Of a stretch of 64,000 nucleotides of DNA, positions 87 through 9,784 are shown piece by piece. The stretch lies in the NCBI GenBank assembly GCA_913057785.1, contig CAJXPD010000004.1, positions 25,835 to 89,834 of the forward strand. The letters run 5' to 3'. Origin of the DNA: an uncultured Lewinella sp. GTDB taxonomy: Bacteria > Bacteroidota > Bacteroidia > Chitinophagales > Saprospiraceae. The notes under the pieces are model-generated. The model did not search any database. It had not been told where the DNA came from and worked only from the letters and a program-made list of their open reading frames with translations. Both the position numbers and the translations under genes were made by a program. Numbering within the stretch: position 1 is the stretch's first letter; every line of letters begins with the position of its first letter.

Positions 87-1559
87 TTACTTTCTCTCCC
101 GATATTTTCGATTTTGATGGTAGGGCCAATTCCAGGAATAGATGCTTCTACCACTGCAAGCTCTCCTCATTTTTCGGTCTATTCGAGTTTTTAAGTTATT
201 GAATTGAATGGGGAACTGTTGTTGTAAGTGTTGTGCTTTTCGATCTAACAGGTAGGCATTCTGACTGGGTAAGTCATTAATGAGATACTGGATATCTAGG
301 TTTTTGGTATAGTTTGGATTCAGGTTTATTCTGGTGATCAATAGATTCCAGTTGATTAAACCAGCAGTAAGTAAGACTAGATACACGGCCCAGCTATTTC
401 TATGCCAGAGAAAATAGTGACTTTTTCTATCTCTAATCTTGAGCAATAAAGTCACCAGGCCTATCAATACAATCAATAGAAAGATGAATACCCCAATTCT
501 CTTATAGGTTAAACCGAAGTTATGCGTGTATTGGAAATTGCGAATGGCGACGGACAAAACCATAAACATATTTTGGCCCAGCCAGATGTACGCTAATTTC
601 TTAAGTCCTTCATTATCAGGAAAGAAGTTGAGATTTTTGCGAAAAATTACTAAGAGTATTATGGCAGCTAGTAAGATTGCGAAAATGAGTAGATTGGTAC
701 CCTCATGGACATATAAACTCAACTCTGAAGCACTTAGGGCCCTTCTGCTAAACCATACATATACTAAGTCGGTCAGGTTTACAAGACAAATCAATGCATT
801 TAGCAAAGTCAAGGTGATAATGCTTAGCTTAAATCTGCTTTTCAAAATAAGCGGACTAAAGAAGGAAAGGAATCTCTTCTTTCGATTTCTGATTAGGTCA
901 GTATGTAGCTGATCTTGCCGTTTTGATAGGGAATTACTAAATGGATGTTTGAAGAACATAGCACCTACTAATAAGAAACCAATTAAGAATAAAGCAACTT
1001 GTTCAAAGGCAATACTTTGGTTATTTGGAGTGAAAATGAAATCGAAAACTGTATCTACCATTCCTGCAAACTTGTCATTGGCTAAGTAGTAGATCAATAA
1101 GAAAAGAGTGAACAAGCCCAAGGGGATCGACCAGCCCACCGCTTTTTTGATGGTGTAATGTGGACTATTTGTCCAATGTATAGCCCCGGTATATTCTCGC
1201 ACCATTCTCAAGGGAACAAATATTAGACTAGCCAGGCTAGCGGTGAATGCTAAAGGGAGAAATCGAATACTGGCATGTTTAATGAACCCGATAAAAAGAA
1301 GAATCGATACCCAATACATGCTTTTAGCTAAAACCGTATCATTCCCGACCACGGCTAGGGCAGACAAGAAAGCGCCCACTGCAGTAATGGCCACTTCCTT
1401 TTGGTAAGGACCCGTTTGATAGGTCGTAGCAAATGCTAGGAGTAGAATAGGAACAACAAAGAAGAGAGCGTTTAATCCCATATCTTCCTGATAAAATATG
1501 AAAGTACACCAGGCTCCACCGGCCACTACCAGTATAAGTTTAATTATTGCTGATCGCAT
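87..1559 (-). CDS. DUF4173/DUF4153-type polytopic membrane protein
   Basis: A 490-residue protein with about a dozen hydrophobic segments along most of its length and a basic, tyrosine-rich C-terminus. The middle and C-terminal parts (about residues 250-400, with LSASELSLYVHEG and 'WLGQNMFMVLS') look like the DUF4153/DUF4173 family of inner-membrane proteins, whose function is unknown. The ATG lies inside the last codons of the DUF1361 gene (16-bp overlap), so the two are almost certainly co-transcribed and translationally coupled. The last 25 residues are low-complexity and basic. An alternative frame is open there, but I see no clear sign of a frameshift. Confidence 0.7.
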   Translation of the reverse strand: MRSAIIKLILVVAGGAWCTFIFYQEDMGLNALFFVVPILLLAFATTYQTGPYQKEVAITAVGAFLSALAVVGNDTVLAKSMYWVSILLFIGFIKHASIRFLPLAFTASLASLIFVPLRMVREYTGAIHWTNSPHYTIKKAVGWSIPLGLFTLFLLIYYLANDKFAGMVDTVFDFIFTPNNQSIAFEQVALFLIGFLLVGAMFFKHPFSNSLSKRQDQLHTDLIRNRKKRFLSFFSPLILKSRFKLSIITLTLLNALICLVNLTDLVYVWFSRRALSASELSLYVHEGTNLLIFAILLAAIILLVIFRKNLNFFPDNEGLKKLAYIWLGQNMFMVLSVAIRNFQYTHNFGLTYKRIGVFIFLLIVLIGLVTLLLKIRDRKSHYFLWHRNSWAVYLVLLTAGLINWNLLITRINLNPNYTKNLDIQYLINDLPSQNAYLLDRKAQHLQQQFPIQFNNLKTRIDRKMRRACSGRSIYSWNWPYHQNRKYRERK

Positions 1560-2242
1560 AAGACTTGATTTTTAGAAGAAAGGAAAACGATCGATAGAAA
1601 AGCTGAAAATAACATGGCCATGCCCCAGATGTTTTTGTAGGTCACTGGGTTAACTAGTAATGAATAGATGTCATCAATAATCATAAATGGCTGCGCCAGT
1701 AGATCCCAACTATTCCAGCGCAGAAACCGACCGGCCGCAATTCCAAAACTGCAAAGCAGAATAACAGAGAGAATGATTAGTAAACTCCATCTACTCCCCC
1801 ACTTTTCTTCTAAAACAGCAGCGATCAATTGAAGTGAGCCAATAGCAAAAAGCAAGCCGCTCCAGGCAAAAGCAAAAAAAGTAAAGGTATCATACCATAA
1901 AGGCATAAAAGCTCTTGGACGGATATGTATCAAATCAGTGATTAGGTAGGGCGCATTGGGGAGGAAGGCTAACCAAACTAAGATGCTAGGCCAAAGTAAC
2001 CACTTTGCCTGTGGTCGATCTCTGTAGTGATAAATACCTAGTGCCAGGACAAAGGGAACTAAAGCTAGAAATAGATTCCAGATCAAGAACAAAAAGGTGT
2101 CGCTCCTATACATAATGATATTGTCCAAACTAGCCAGCGGTTCCCAACTTGTTCCTACAAATAAATTTCTAAATATGATGAGGCATCCGTCGAAAAAAAG
2201 CAGAAGAGAGAGAAAACGTAGATGCTTGATAGAGATATGCAT
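1544..2242 (-). CDS. DUF1361 membrane protein
   Basis: A 232-residue integral membrane protein with about seven hydrophobic segments. The signature 'FLPNAPYLITDLIHI', followed by WYDTFTFF and later RFLRWNSWDL, is characteristic of DUF1361, a family of predicted inner-membrane proteins with no assigned activity. It is the upstream member of a two-gene unit with the DUF4173 protein (16-bp overlap). The gap to the Coq4-like gene upstream is only 16 bp, so all three may share a transcript started at the element at 2798-2820. Confidence 0.78.
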   Translation of the reverse strand: MHISIKHLRFLSLLLFFDGCLIIFRNLFVGTSWEPLASLDNIIMYRSDTFLFLIWNLFLALVPFVLALGIYHYRDRPQAKWLLWPSILVWLAFLPNAPYLITDLIHIRPRAFMPLWYDTFTFFAFAWSGLLFAIGSLQLIAAVLEEKWGSRWSLLIILSVILLCSFGIAAGRFLRWNSWDLLAQPFMIIDDIYSLLVNPVTYKNIWGMAMLFSAFLSIVFLSSKNQVLCDQQ

Positions 2243-2797: not shown

Positions 2798-2820
2798 AAA
2801 AGTACTTTGAAATTCAAAGT
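2798..2820 (-). promoter_or_regulatory. Operator-like element, copy 1 (upstream of coq4-like gene)
   Basis: Read on the minus strand it is ACTTTG, five bases, CAAAGT, then ACTTTT, so three alternating half-sites that include the perfect palindrome AAAGTACTTT. An almost identical 23-mer (one difference) lies at 3835-3857. Sharing between two promoters, one of which serves a winged-helix regulator, suggests a regulator binding site. This is inference; no binding data are visible. Confidence 0.6.
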
Positions 2821-2836
2821 TAAAAGACAAAAAAAT

Positions 2837-3139
2837 TTACGAACGCATATTTAGGAGTTGTTCTAGGGCATTCAGGTGTTCATTGAAAGATTGCCTTCCT
2901 AAGGCTGTGACGCGGTAGGAAGTATTGGGCTTTCGACCAACAAACTGTTTTCTGACTTCTATATATGCTTTAGATTCCAGGGCCTTTAGATGGGAAGCCA
3001 AGTTCCCATCCGTTACCTCTAGTGTTTGCTTTAATGTCTTAAAATCTACCCAATCATTAACCAACAAGATCGACATGATGCCAAGTCGAATTCGGTGGTC
3101 GAAGGTCTTATTGAGATTGGTGATAATATTCTTCATCAA
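2837..3139 (-). CDS. Winged-helix transcriptional regulator (HTH_34 type)
   Basis: A 100-residue single-domain winged-helix protein. Residues 15-55 carry the recognition region (DFKTLKQTLEVTDGNLASHL), and residues 60-80 form the wing with KQFVGRKPNTSYRVTALG. This is the compact 'DNA-binding domain only' ArsR/MarR-like type (HTH_34) common in Bacteroidota. It follows the membrane-protein gene by four bases, so the two form an operon. The gene lies between two near-identical palindromic elements (2798-2820 and 3835-3857), which makes autoregulation plus control of the Coq4-like gene plausible. Two start codons are adjacent (MMKN). Confidence 0.82.
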   Translation of the reverse strand: MMKNIITNLNKTFDHRIRLGIMSILLVNDWVDFKTLKQTLEVTDGNLASHLKALESKAYIEVRKQFVGRKPNTSYRVTALGRQSFNEHLNALEQLLNMRS

Positions 3140-3143
3140 GTAA

Positions 3144-3821
3144 TTATTGCCTGGCTAATTTTGTGGTAACACGATCAGGTTTCTCATATTTCCAATACAT
3201 CATCATTCCGTAGAGGATATGCAGAATACCGAAACCAATGGCCCAAAACTCTAGACCATATCCCAAATTGAAGACTGCAATTACCCCTAAGCTAATTTCT
3301 AGAATGCCAAGATAGTAAATATCATGTAAGGTAAATTTACTGGCATTAACTAGTGCTAACCCATAAAAAATTAAGGTAGCTGGAGCTATCAAGCCTGCTA
3401 AGCCGTGTTGGAAAAGGGCGACGCAAAATAAGCCCCCAGCTATTAGGGGGATAGCCAAATTAATTAGGAGTCTTTTGCTGAGAGCATCCCATATCGGTTG
3501 GCCCTTTCGTTTGGCTTTGCGGGTCGTGAAGTAGATTCCAGAACAGATAGCACCCAAGAGAACGAGCGAACCCGTTGCTAAAAAGAAGCTTACATAATCT
3601 ATGCCCCATTTATCTGCCGATGCTGCAATCTCATAGTAAGTCTTCTTGTTTTCGAATGGAGTTACTCCCAGATAAACATAGACTGCCGTAGCTCCAGCTA
3701 GCGCAAATAAACCAGCTGCCACTCCGGAAAGACCGCTCAAAGAAATGAAACGAGAAGAACGTTCCATGAGGGAACGAATCTCACTGAGCGTTTTCAAATG
3801 GTTCTCTTGTGTCTTAGTCAT
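3144..3821 (-). CDS. Hypothetical four- to six-helix membrane protein paired with HTH regulator
   Basis: The track ORF begins at 3854, but that start lies inside the repeated operator element. The ATG at 3821 (MTKTQENHLKTLSEIR) is preferred, giving 225 residues. A soluble N-terminal helix with SEIRSLMERSSRF is followed by about six hydrophobic segments and a short basic tail. I recognise the general type, small Bacteroidota membrane proteins encoded just upstream of a winged-helix regulator, but cannot name a family. Because it is co-transcribed with the regulator, it may act as its membrane partner or signal input. That is inference from position. Confidence 0.65.
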   Translation of the reverse strand: MTKTQENHLKTLSEIRSLMERSSRFISLSGLSGVAAGLFALAGATAVYVYLGVTPFENKKTYYEIAASADKWGIDYVSFFLATGSLVLLGAICSGIYFTTRKAKRKGQPIWDALSKRLLINLAIPLIAGGLFCVALFQHGLAGLIAPATLIFYGLALVNASKFTLHDIYYLGILEISLGVIAVFNLGYGLEFWAIGFGILHILYGMMMYWKYEKPDRVTTKLARQ

Positions 3822-3834
3822 GAGCGAAGATTGT

Positions 3835-3857
3835 AAAAGTACTTTGAAATACAAAGT
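3835..3857 (-). promoter_or_regulatory. Operator-like element, copy 2 (upstream of membrane protein/HTH operon)
   Basis: It matches the element at 2798-2820 at 22 of 23 positions, with the same order and spacing of ACTTTG, CAAAGT and ACTTTT half-sites on the minus strand. It ends 13 bases before the preferred ATG at 3821, so a protein bound here would cover the promoter or leader of the regulator's own operon. Confidence 0.6.
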
Positions 3858-3903
3858 AAGTTTATTTTGATAAGAGATGCAAGTTTTTCAATGGCTCAAA
3901 GAA

Positions 3904-7912: not shown

Positions 7913-9784
7913 ATGGCGAAGGTTTATGCAACCCCGGGCGTGTATATCGAAGAAAAAAGTGCCTTTCCCAACTCAGCTGTACCCGTAGCTACTGCAGTAC
8001 CGGCCTTTATCGGTTATACAGAAAAGGCCATCAGAGATAAAAAAAGCACTAAGAATATACCGATCAGAATCTCCTCCTTTGGTGAGTATCTATTGTACTT
8101 CGGAGGTGGACCTAAAATAACTTATCAAATAACGGATATTAAGAAAAAGGATCCCAGCCAAGTTTATCAATTAGATGTAAACAAAAGTACTCAGTACTTC
8201 TTATTTAATTGTATGAAATCTTTCTTTGCCAACGGCGGGTCAGATTGCTACATTGTTTCTGTTGGGAGTTACAAGGATTCGATTAAGATAGAGGATTTCT
8301 TTGGAGAGGTTCCTGATGGTGATGAGATGAAACTATTGGGGATTACTTCATTAAAGAAGTACCCAGAACCTACCATGTTGGTTATTCCAGATGCGGTTCT
8401 ATTAAGTAGAGAAGATTGCGGAACCCTTCAACAGCAAATGTTACGTCATTGTGGGCAAGATATGCGTAGCCGGATAGCCATATTAGATATACATGATGGT
8501 TATCAAAAGCGGACAAATGCCCATGATTCCTCCGATGTAATCTTTGATTTTAGAGAAAAAATCGGCTCTAATTTCCTGGATTTTGGTGCAGCCTACTACC
8601 CATGGCTTCATACCACCATTACAAGTGCAGAGGAGCTTGATTTTACCAACATAGATGAGCAGGCGGAATCTGAATTTATTGCCATCTTAAAACAAGATAT
8701 AGATGCATCAGTTTCTGCAGGACTGTTAACTAGTGAGCGAGCAAGCGAGATTAAGAATGAGATAGGATCGATGGAGATAGCTAGGAAACAGCAGGCGGAG
8801 TCAGCCTATTTTGAAGCGATAATGCTACTGCTGAAAGATTTGCAAGGAATAGACGATCGAAGTGTTGAGGATTTAAAAACCAAAATAAAGGAAGAAGGTG
8901 CAGATATAAAAGCTCTACTACAGCATGCAAACTTGACGGATTTCATAAGCAAGACAAATGAACTTCCTGTGCCCAGCATAACTAAAGCGAGTGGTGATGC
9001 AGTACCGACATTTACTACAGTGCATTTTCAACTTCGAATAGATACAGCTGTAAATACAGCCGAAGATCTTGATACAATTCTTAAGGTCAAGAAAGAAGGA
9101 GAGGAGATTCAGCATAAAAGAATCAAAATAAAAACCTTGCACCAGTCTCTTTTGGCTATAGCCCCATTGTATAAATCCATCATGGACAGTGTTAGGCAGA
9201 AGATTAATTTGCTACCACCTAGTGGGATTATGGCAGGTATCTACTCAATGGTGGATAATAATGTTGGCGTTTTTCAATCCCCCGCTAACGTTAGTGTAGG
9301 ATCAGTAGTGGAACCTGCTGTGAACTTGAGTAATGAAGAGCAAGAGGATTTAAATGTTCCCCTAAATGGAAAAGCAGTCAATGCTATTCGGACATTTCCA
9401 GGAAAAGGTGTGCTAGTGTGGGGCGCGAGAACGCTAGATGGGAATAGCCAGGACTGGCGCTACATCAGTGTGAGACGGACAGTTATTTTTATCGAACAAT
9501 CGATCAAATATGCGGCCGAACCTTATGCCTTCGAACCTAATACTGATGCTACCTGGACAAATCTGAAGGCATTGATCACTAACTTCTTGACCAATGTTTG
9601 GCAACAAGGTGCATTGGCGGGTGCTACTGCCGAGGATGCTTTTAGTGTGGATATTGGACTAGGGGTTACCATGACACCAGTAGATATTTTGGATGGAATA
9701 ATGAAAGTGATCATTAAAGTGGCTGTTACTCGCCCGGCGGAATTTATCGTCATTACTTTTCAACAGAACATGCAACAGCCCTAA
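7913..9784 (+). CDS. Contractile tail sheath protein (phage/eCIS sheath family)
   Basis: A 623-residue sheath. The N-terminus 'KVYATPGVYIEEKSAFPNS...TAVPAFIGYTEKA' and the C-terminal half (GKGVLVWGARTLDGNSQDWRY, RRTVIFIEQSIKYA, and the end AEFIVITFQQ) are typical of phage tail sheath and extracellular contractile injection system sheaths. Sheath subunits polymerise around the tube and contract to drive it into a target. Between AAYYPWL (about residue 226) and LPPSGIMAGIY (about 431) sits a long helical, charged insertion of roughly 180 residues, which explains the length above the usual 450-520. Neighbours are the unknown 410-aa gene upstream and the tube gene 64 bases downstream. Confidence 0.95.
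   Translation: MAKVYATPGVYIEEKSAFPNSAVPVATAVPAFIGYTEKAIRDKKSTKNIPIRISSFGEYLLYFGGGPKITYQITDIKKKDPSQVYQLDVNKSTQYFLFNCMKSFFANGGSDCYIVSVGSYKDSIKIEDFFGEVPDGDEMKLLGITSLKKYPEPTMLVIPDAVLLSREDCGTLQQQMLRHCGQDMRSRIAILDIHDGYQKRTNAHDSSDVIFDFREKIGSNFLDFGAAYYPWLHTTITSAEELDFTNIDEQAESEFIAILKQDIDASVSAGLLTSERASEIKNEIGSMEIARKQQAESAYFEAIMLLLKDLQGIDDRSVEDLKTKIKEEGADIKALLQHANLTDFISKTNELPVPSITKASGDAVPTFTTVHFQLRIDTAVNTAEDLDTILKVKKEGEEIQHKRIKIKTLHQSLLAIAPLYKSIMDSVRQKINLLPPSGIMAGIYSMVDNNVGVFQSPANVSVGSVVEPAVNLSNEEQEDLNVPLNGKAVNAIRTFPGKGVLVWGARTLDGNSQDWRYISVRRTVIFIEQSIKYAAEPYAFEPNTDATWTNLKALITNFLTNVWQQGALAGATAEDAFSVDIGLGVTMTPVDILDGIMKVIIKVAVTRPAEFIVITFQQNMQQP

Follow-up and report, generated by a model that had tools for sequence, protein, structure and literature searches.

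The closest described systems are Listeria LstR and LltR (PMC6624303) and the HAAS-PadR dyad (PMC11237479), in which a small winged-helix repressor of the PadR type and transmembrane (TM) proteins are encoded in one operon. These PadR-type systems mainly control their own operon and are thought to answer envelope stress (PMC6624303; PMC11237479). The HAAS-PadR dyad is defined by a membrane partner with a HAAS-type domain, that is, DUF1700, DUF1129, or DUF1048 (PMC11237479). As for the HTH_34 family, its solved protein PH1061 (PDB 1UB9) is annotated as a hypothetical protein, and neither an operator or regulon for the family nor a description of the one reported here was found in the open literature searched, and a prior description elsewhere is possible. 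The few papers found there that name these families seem to concern other matters than such a regulon, and, judging from their titles, those containing the motif are all unrelated.

The locus analyzed here lies in a 64 kb stretch of DNA (the window, taken at its full length) and is transcribed from the minus strand in the order operator A, the membrane protein gene (MEM), the HTH_34 regulator gene, operator B, and the Coq4-like, DUF1361, and DUF4153 genes (table 1). This gene map agrees with an earlier, sequence-only reading, according to which two elements flank the membrane protein/HTH operon and one of them precedes the Coq4-like gene. With LstR, LltR, and HAAS-PadR the locus shares a small winged-helix regulator co-encoded with a membrane protein. 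It differs in its regulator, which matches HTH_34 (PF13601) over the full length (1-80) with 107.4 bits against a curated cut-off of 27, whereas its 20.9 bits against PadR (PF03551) fall below the curated cut-off of 27; in its partner, which lacks a match to HAAS, DUF1700, DUF1129, or DUF1048; and in its proposed regulon, which would also take in another operon and an unlinked gene. The regulator aligns with PH1061 along residues 14-96 (E 3e-8), and both are stand-alone winged-helix domains of ~100 aa.

The predicted structure of MEM (pLDDT 83.5) has one helix at the N-terminus and then six long ones predicted to be TM, and the protein is conserved across 32 aligned orthologs. A fold search of the model against the PDB returned no solved structural relative below E 0.5. 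DUF1700, DUF1129, and DUF1048 are absent from all 32 orthologs at E 0.01, and a weak DUF308 match is present in eight. MEM was rejected as a HAAS member for this reason, and the resemblance to HAAS-PadR is a working likeness, not membership. An upstream TTG start of MEM at 3854, indicated by an ORF finder, is unlikely because it falls inside operator A and 5′ of the predicted transcription start.

In the downstream unit, the Coq4-like protein scores 17.2 bits against Coq4 (PF05019), below the curated cut-off of 22.9; Coq4-like targets in other genomes reach E 8.8e-11, and the metal-site motif is present in the window's protein and in 13 of 13 such targets. Bacteroidota use menaquinone, and the classical ubiquinone role is therefore unlikely for this protein. 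The three genes are likely one operon, since a gap of 16 bases is followed by the overlap of the DUF1361 and DUF4153 genes. The last of them had earlier been taken for DUF4173; its Pfam match is DUF4153. A few kb away, at 7913-9784 on the plus strand, there is a gene for a phage-type tail sheath protein (PHROG tail sheath, E 2.9e-46), perhaps belonging to a contractile injection system or a prophage remnant.

Table 1. Coordinates of genes, operators, and predicted promoter parts at the locus
Feature	Position	Strand	Sequence or match	Remarks
TTG of predicted -33 box, promoter A	3880..3882	-	TTG	Begins 25 bases 5′ of operator
Predicted -7 box, promoter A	3852..3859	-	TTACTTTG	7/8 to TAnnTTTG; overlaps first half-site; predicted start ~3847
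Operator A (putative)	3836..3857	-	ACTTTGTATTTCAAAGTACTTT	Upstream of 6-TM/HTH operon; counterpart at almost every ortholog locus
MEM (6-TM membrane protein), 225 aa	3144..3821	-		ATG at 3821; predicted TM helices; 32 aligned orthologs
HTH_34 winged-helix regulator, ~100 aa	2837..3139	-	PF13601	Proposed owner of operator; motif co-occurrence
T-tract (7 T)	2828..2834	-		5′ of operator B
Predicted -7 box, promoter B	2815..2822	-	TAACTTTG	Perfect TAnnTTTG; predicted start ~2810
Operator B (putative)	2799..2820	-	ACTTTGAATTTCAAAGTACTTT	3 bases separate its end from ATG at 2795
Coq4-like protein, 178 aa	2259..2795	-		Metal-site motif HDxxHx11E retained
DUF1361 membrane protein	1544..2242	-	PF07099, E 6.8e-39	16 bases 3′ of Coq4-like stop
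DUF4153 membrane protein	87..1559	-	PF13687, E 1.4e-35	Overlaps DUF1361 gene

Direct reading of 2798-2820 (AAAAGTACTTTGAAATTCAAAGT) and 3835-3857 (AAAAGTACTTTGAAATACAAAGT) confirmed two 23-bp elements identical at 22 of 23 positions, with a single differing base, and the announced half-site order ACTTTG, CAAAGT, ACTTTT holds on the minus strand. Both copies read ACTTTG-N5-CAAAGT-ACTTTT on this (gene) strand, and the shorter common pattern is ACTTTG-N5-CAAAGT-ACTTT. The end of operator A is separated from the ATG of MEM by 14 bases. With up to three mismatches, the pattern ACTTTGN5CAAAGTACTTT has three matches in the 64 kb window against 0.27 expected from shuffling, the third being an opposite-strand overlap with the 3835 copy.

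Genome-wide (11.36 Mb) there are exactly three perfect copies, that is, the window's two and one at C155:19190-19211, and each sits just upstream of a gene. The third copy lies 33 bases 5′ of the ATG of an unlinked gene for a 98-aa membrane protein. The regulon foreseen in the sequence-only reading thus retains the window's two promoters, but is not confined to them, as the C155 promoter makes three. The scan of the own genome with mismatches gave 58 matches in total versus 46 in the reversed control, and extra targets at one to three mismatches were rejected, the matches with two or three mismatches being near the control level. The best looser match (C88:35016, two mismatches) was also rejected as a target since it appears to lie inside a coding sequence.

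The motif tracks the regulator across the class. The sample comprised 149 genomes, own genome included, and the HTH protein was searched in the other 148. The exact element occurs in 36 of the 149 (~65 exact matches), and the reversed-control pattern had zero matches in the same 149 genomes. HTH scores are bimodal, with orthologs at 96 bits or more and distant paralogs at 73 bits or less; by this division the ortholog is present in 48 of the 148 genomes. It was found in all 35 motif-positive genomes, and the motif in none of the 100 ortholog-negative ones (Fisher 1.7e-23, with kinship ignored). Several genomes lack both motif and ortholog while their genus-mates have both (e.g., G064, G126, and G123). 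At the 48 ortholog loci, half-sites 1 and 2 (up to one mismatch, HTH strand) are found at least twice in 39, once in eight, and not at all in one (L271). The typical layout is one site 5′ of MEM and one right 3′ of the HTH gene, and no motif lies within ~1.5 kb of the distant paralogs that were read. The scans of the genome and its relatives show that the motif is not widespread at unrelated promoters, and the comparative evidence supports the earlier idea of a mini-regulon in which the HTH protein also controls its own operon.

The putative recognition helix reads TDGNLASH in most orthologs. At its H position, 46 of 48 motif-linked orthologs carry H and two carry N, while Q is found in 11 of 12 paralogs. 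The L292 ortholog aligns as GNLASHL. In the six readable HTH_34 proteins that stand beside the motif on contigs labelled as other phyla or Ignavibacteria, H is retained in every case (6/6). The ortholog of L274 has N in place of H, and both of its sites share a C12-to-A change. This possible protein-DNA co-variation is only suggestive, because the other N-bearing ortholog (L275) retains the standard site.

The Flavobacterium start map gives the -7 consensus TAnnTTTG at -12 to -5 (PMC9723704). In 93 A-type sites, T is at -1 in 99% and TTG is at -24 to -22 in 69 of 93. The arrangement TTG-N(about 20)-TAnnTTTG is that of the Bacteroidota sigma-A promoter, and the first half-site supplies part of the -7 box. 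Owing to this coincidence, the transcription start is predicted near motif position 11, inside the element, with predicted leaders of ~26 bases from A and 15 from B. The element noticed earlier is real, but it is not free-standing, as it overlaps predicted promoters. In the case of the 84 B-type sites, T6 or longer is found in 76, at ~-15 to -8 and just after the HTH stop codon. A clear -33 box (TTG) is missing there and T at -1 is often missing, so that a promoter at these sites is less certain. The T-tract before site B was rejected as a terminator, no hairpin being present (mean dG -3.2 kcal/mol, z 0.2).

The HTH_34 protein encoded between the two copies very probably recognizes the element as its operator and acts over the promoter as a dimeric autorepressor. 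An HTH_34 dimer would occupy the palindrome ACTTTG-N5-CAAAGT and make an additional contact at the third, weaker half-site (ACTTT). Since the -7 box includes the first half-site and the predicted start lies within the element, a dimer sitting there would bar access to the promoter or escape from it. Repression would extend to its own operon (6-TM protein and HTH), to the Coq4-like/DUF1361/DUF4153 operon, and to the distant gene of the 98-aa membrane protein. By analogy with the PadR-type and HAAS-PadR systems, release may follow a membrane or envelope signal, possibly through the co-encoded 6-TM protein. At the regulator's own promoter (site A, with the -33/-7 layout seen in 93 sites), the operator overlaps the predicted promoter and start, which is the arrangement of an autoregulated repressor.

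The same overlap bears on the sign of regulation. The position over the -7 box, with the start inside the element, favors a dimeric autorepressor covering the promoter; it fits repression and leaves room for activation by another route. Activation by the bound HTH protein, either throughout or at one promoter with repression at the other, is in our view unlikely. The B-type sites, with a T-tract instead of a -33 box, would agree with such a division, and sites A and B may differ in behavior. However, an activator usually sits 5′ of the -33 box, whereas the element extends over the -7 box and the predicted start, and in the Aminicenantes (L158) and Epsilonproteobacteria (L212) loci a promoter of the TTGACA/TATA type abuts or overlaps the first half-site.

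The element usually lies 1-50 bases 5′ of a start codon and is nearly always oriented towards the gene, and its distance from the ATG is not constant across sites. An alternative sigma factor might also be expected to leave its promoter signature in this place and orientation, with the HTH protein as a bystander in a conserved operon. This reading is very unlikely: dimeric regulators typically bind such two-fold palindromes, the A sites have a normal -33/-7 promoter, motif and HTH ortholog occur together, and other phyla combine the same element with a different promoter type. The proximity to the start codon in most cases would also suit an element acting as RNA, either a leader hairpin or a translation signal. 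Such a role is very improbable: the first arm would lie 5′ of a transcript that starts, as predicted, at position 11, the arm sequences are fixed, the L274 change in one arm is unmatched in the other, and the distance to the ATG varies.

The third half-site fits the proposed HTH_34 dimer less well. When sites were taken by half-sites 1 and 2 alone, and the third was thus tallied free of selection bias, positions 18-22 were A in 79%, C in 92%, T in 94%, T in 97%, and T in 95%, and the final G of a full half-site is lost. On this tally, the third half-site appears real but weaker. The triple half-site element of the sequence-only reading therefore stands in the number of its parts, but these are not equal and are better read as one dimer palindrome, lying over the -7 box, to which a third and weaker half-site is added. 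The centers of half-sites 1 and 2 are 11 bp apart (~one helical turn), and those of 2 and 3 are 6 bp apart; with this closer spacing, the same dimer could not contact the third as it does the other two. Another face of the DNA might be taken by a second protomer or dimer. The third half-site was rejected as a second -7 box, since it is kept in the other-phylum contigs with promoters of the TTGACA/TATA type.

The 108 first genes 3′ of B-type and unlinked sites mostly encode membrane or envelope proteins. CreD is found in 21 of them, DUF4153 in 14, Coq4 in 13, and DUF1361 in six; MpaB-like proteins, C92 peptidases, and others are fewer, and many have no Pfam match. CreD, the commonest second-site target in the relatives, stands directly under an HTH_34-linked site in many Bacteroidia; a search of the window's own genome found no CreD. 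Elsewhere CreD is controlled by CreBC (PMC4689548), with which the present system shares the target and from which it differs in that CreD is here under the HTH_34-linked site.

A wider scan across GTDB genomes yielded at least 80 readable loci, mostly from Bacteroidota. Among the matches listed, 12 loci are non-Bacteroidota or doubtfully placed, several of the other-phylum loci being metagenome bins for each of which a misplaced contig is possible. In seven of the 12 the site is accompanied by an HTH_34 gene, namely, in those from Ignavibacteria (L139), Thermotogota (L144), Planctomycetota (L155), Aminicenantes (L158), Anaerolineales (L186), Microbacterium (L201), and Epsilonproteobacteria (L212). 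L155 echoes the two-site layout, with a two-mismatch site before the membrane gene/HTH pair and another after it. The membrane proteins of L158 and L212 match each other at E 0.07, where homology is not demonstrable, and the Planctomycetota membrane protein gives a weak match to the MEM profile.

Two further Planctomycetota loci (L180:1825-1846 and L181:2968-2989) carry an exact copy of the element next to a membrane protein, and no HTH_34 gene was found at either locus; these copies are possible unlinked regulon members. The L180 membrane protein is weakly similar to a Bacteroidia second-site target.

We tentatively suggest, as a possibility that falls somewhat short of an even chance, that the HTH_34 regulator and its near-invariant operator of three half-sites are an ancient pair present in several phyla, which together with the 6-TM partner would form a kinase-free membrane stress switch over CreD, Coq4-like, and DUF4153 proteins.

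With the autorepressor reading, an uncharacterized regulator family would gain a specific operator, and with it a small regulon found repeatedly in Bacteroidia and beyond. The regulon would offer a route to the roles of DUF4153, DUF1361, the 6-TM protein, and the 98-aa protein, to Coq4-like proteins outside their classical setting, and to CreD in bacteria whose control of CreD is not described in the literature searched. If the 6-TM protein is a sensor, the pair would add one more to the two-gene systems that do the work of kinases in membrane signalling.
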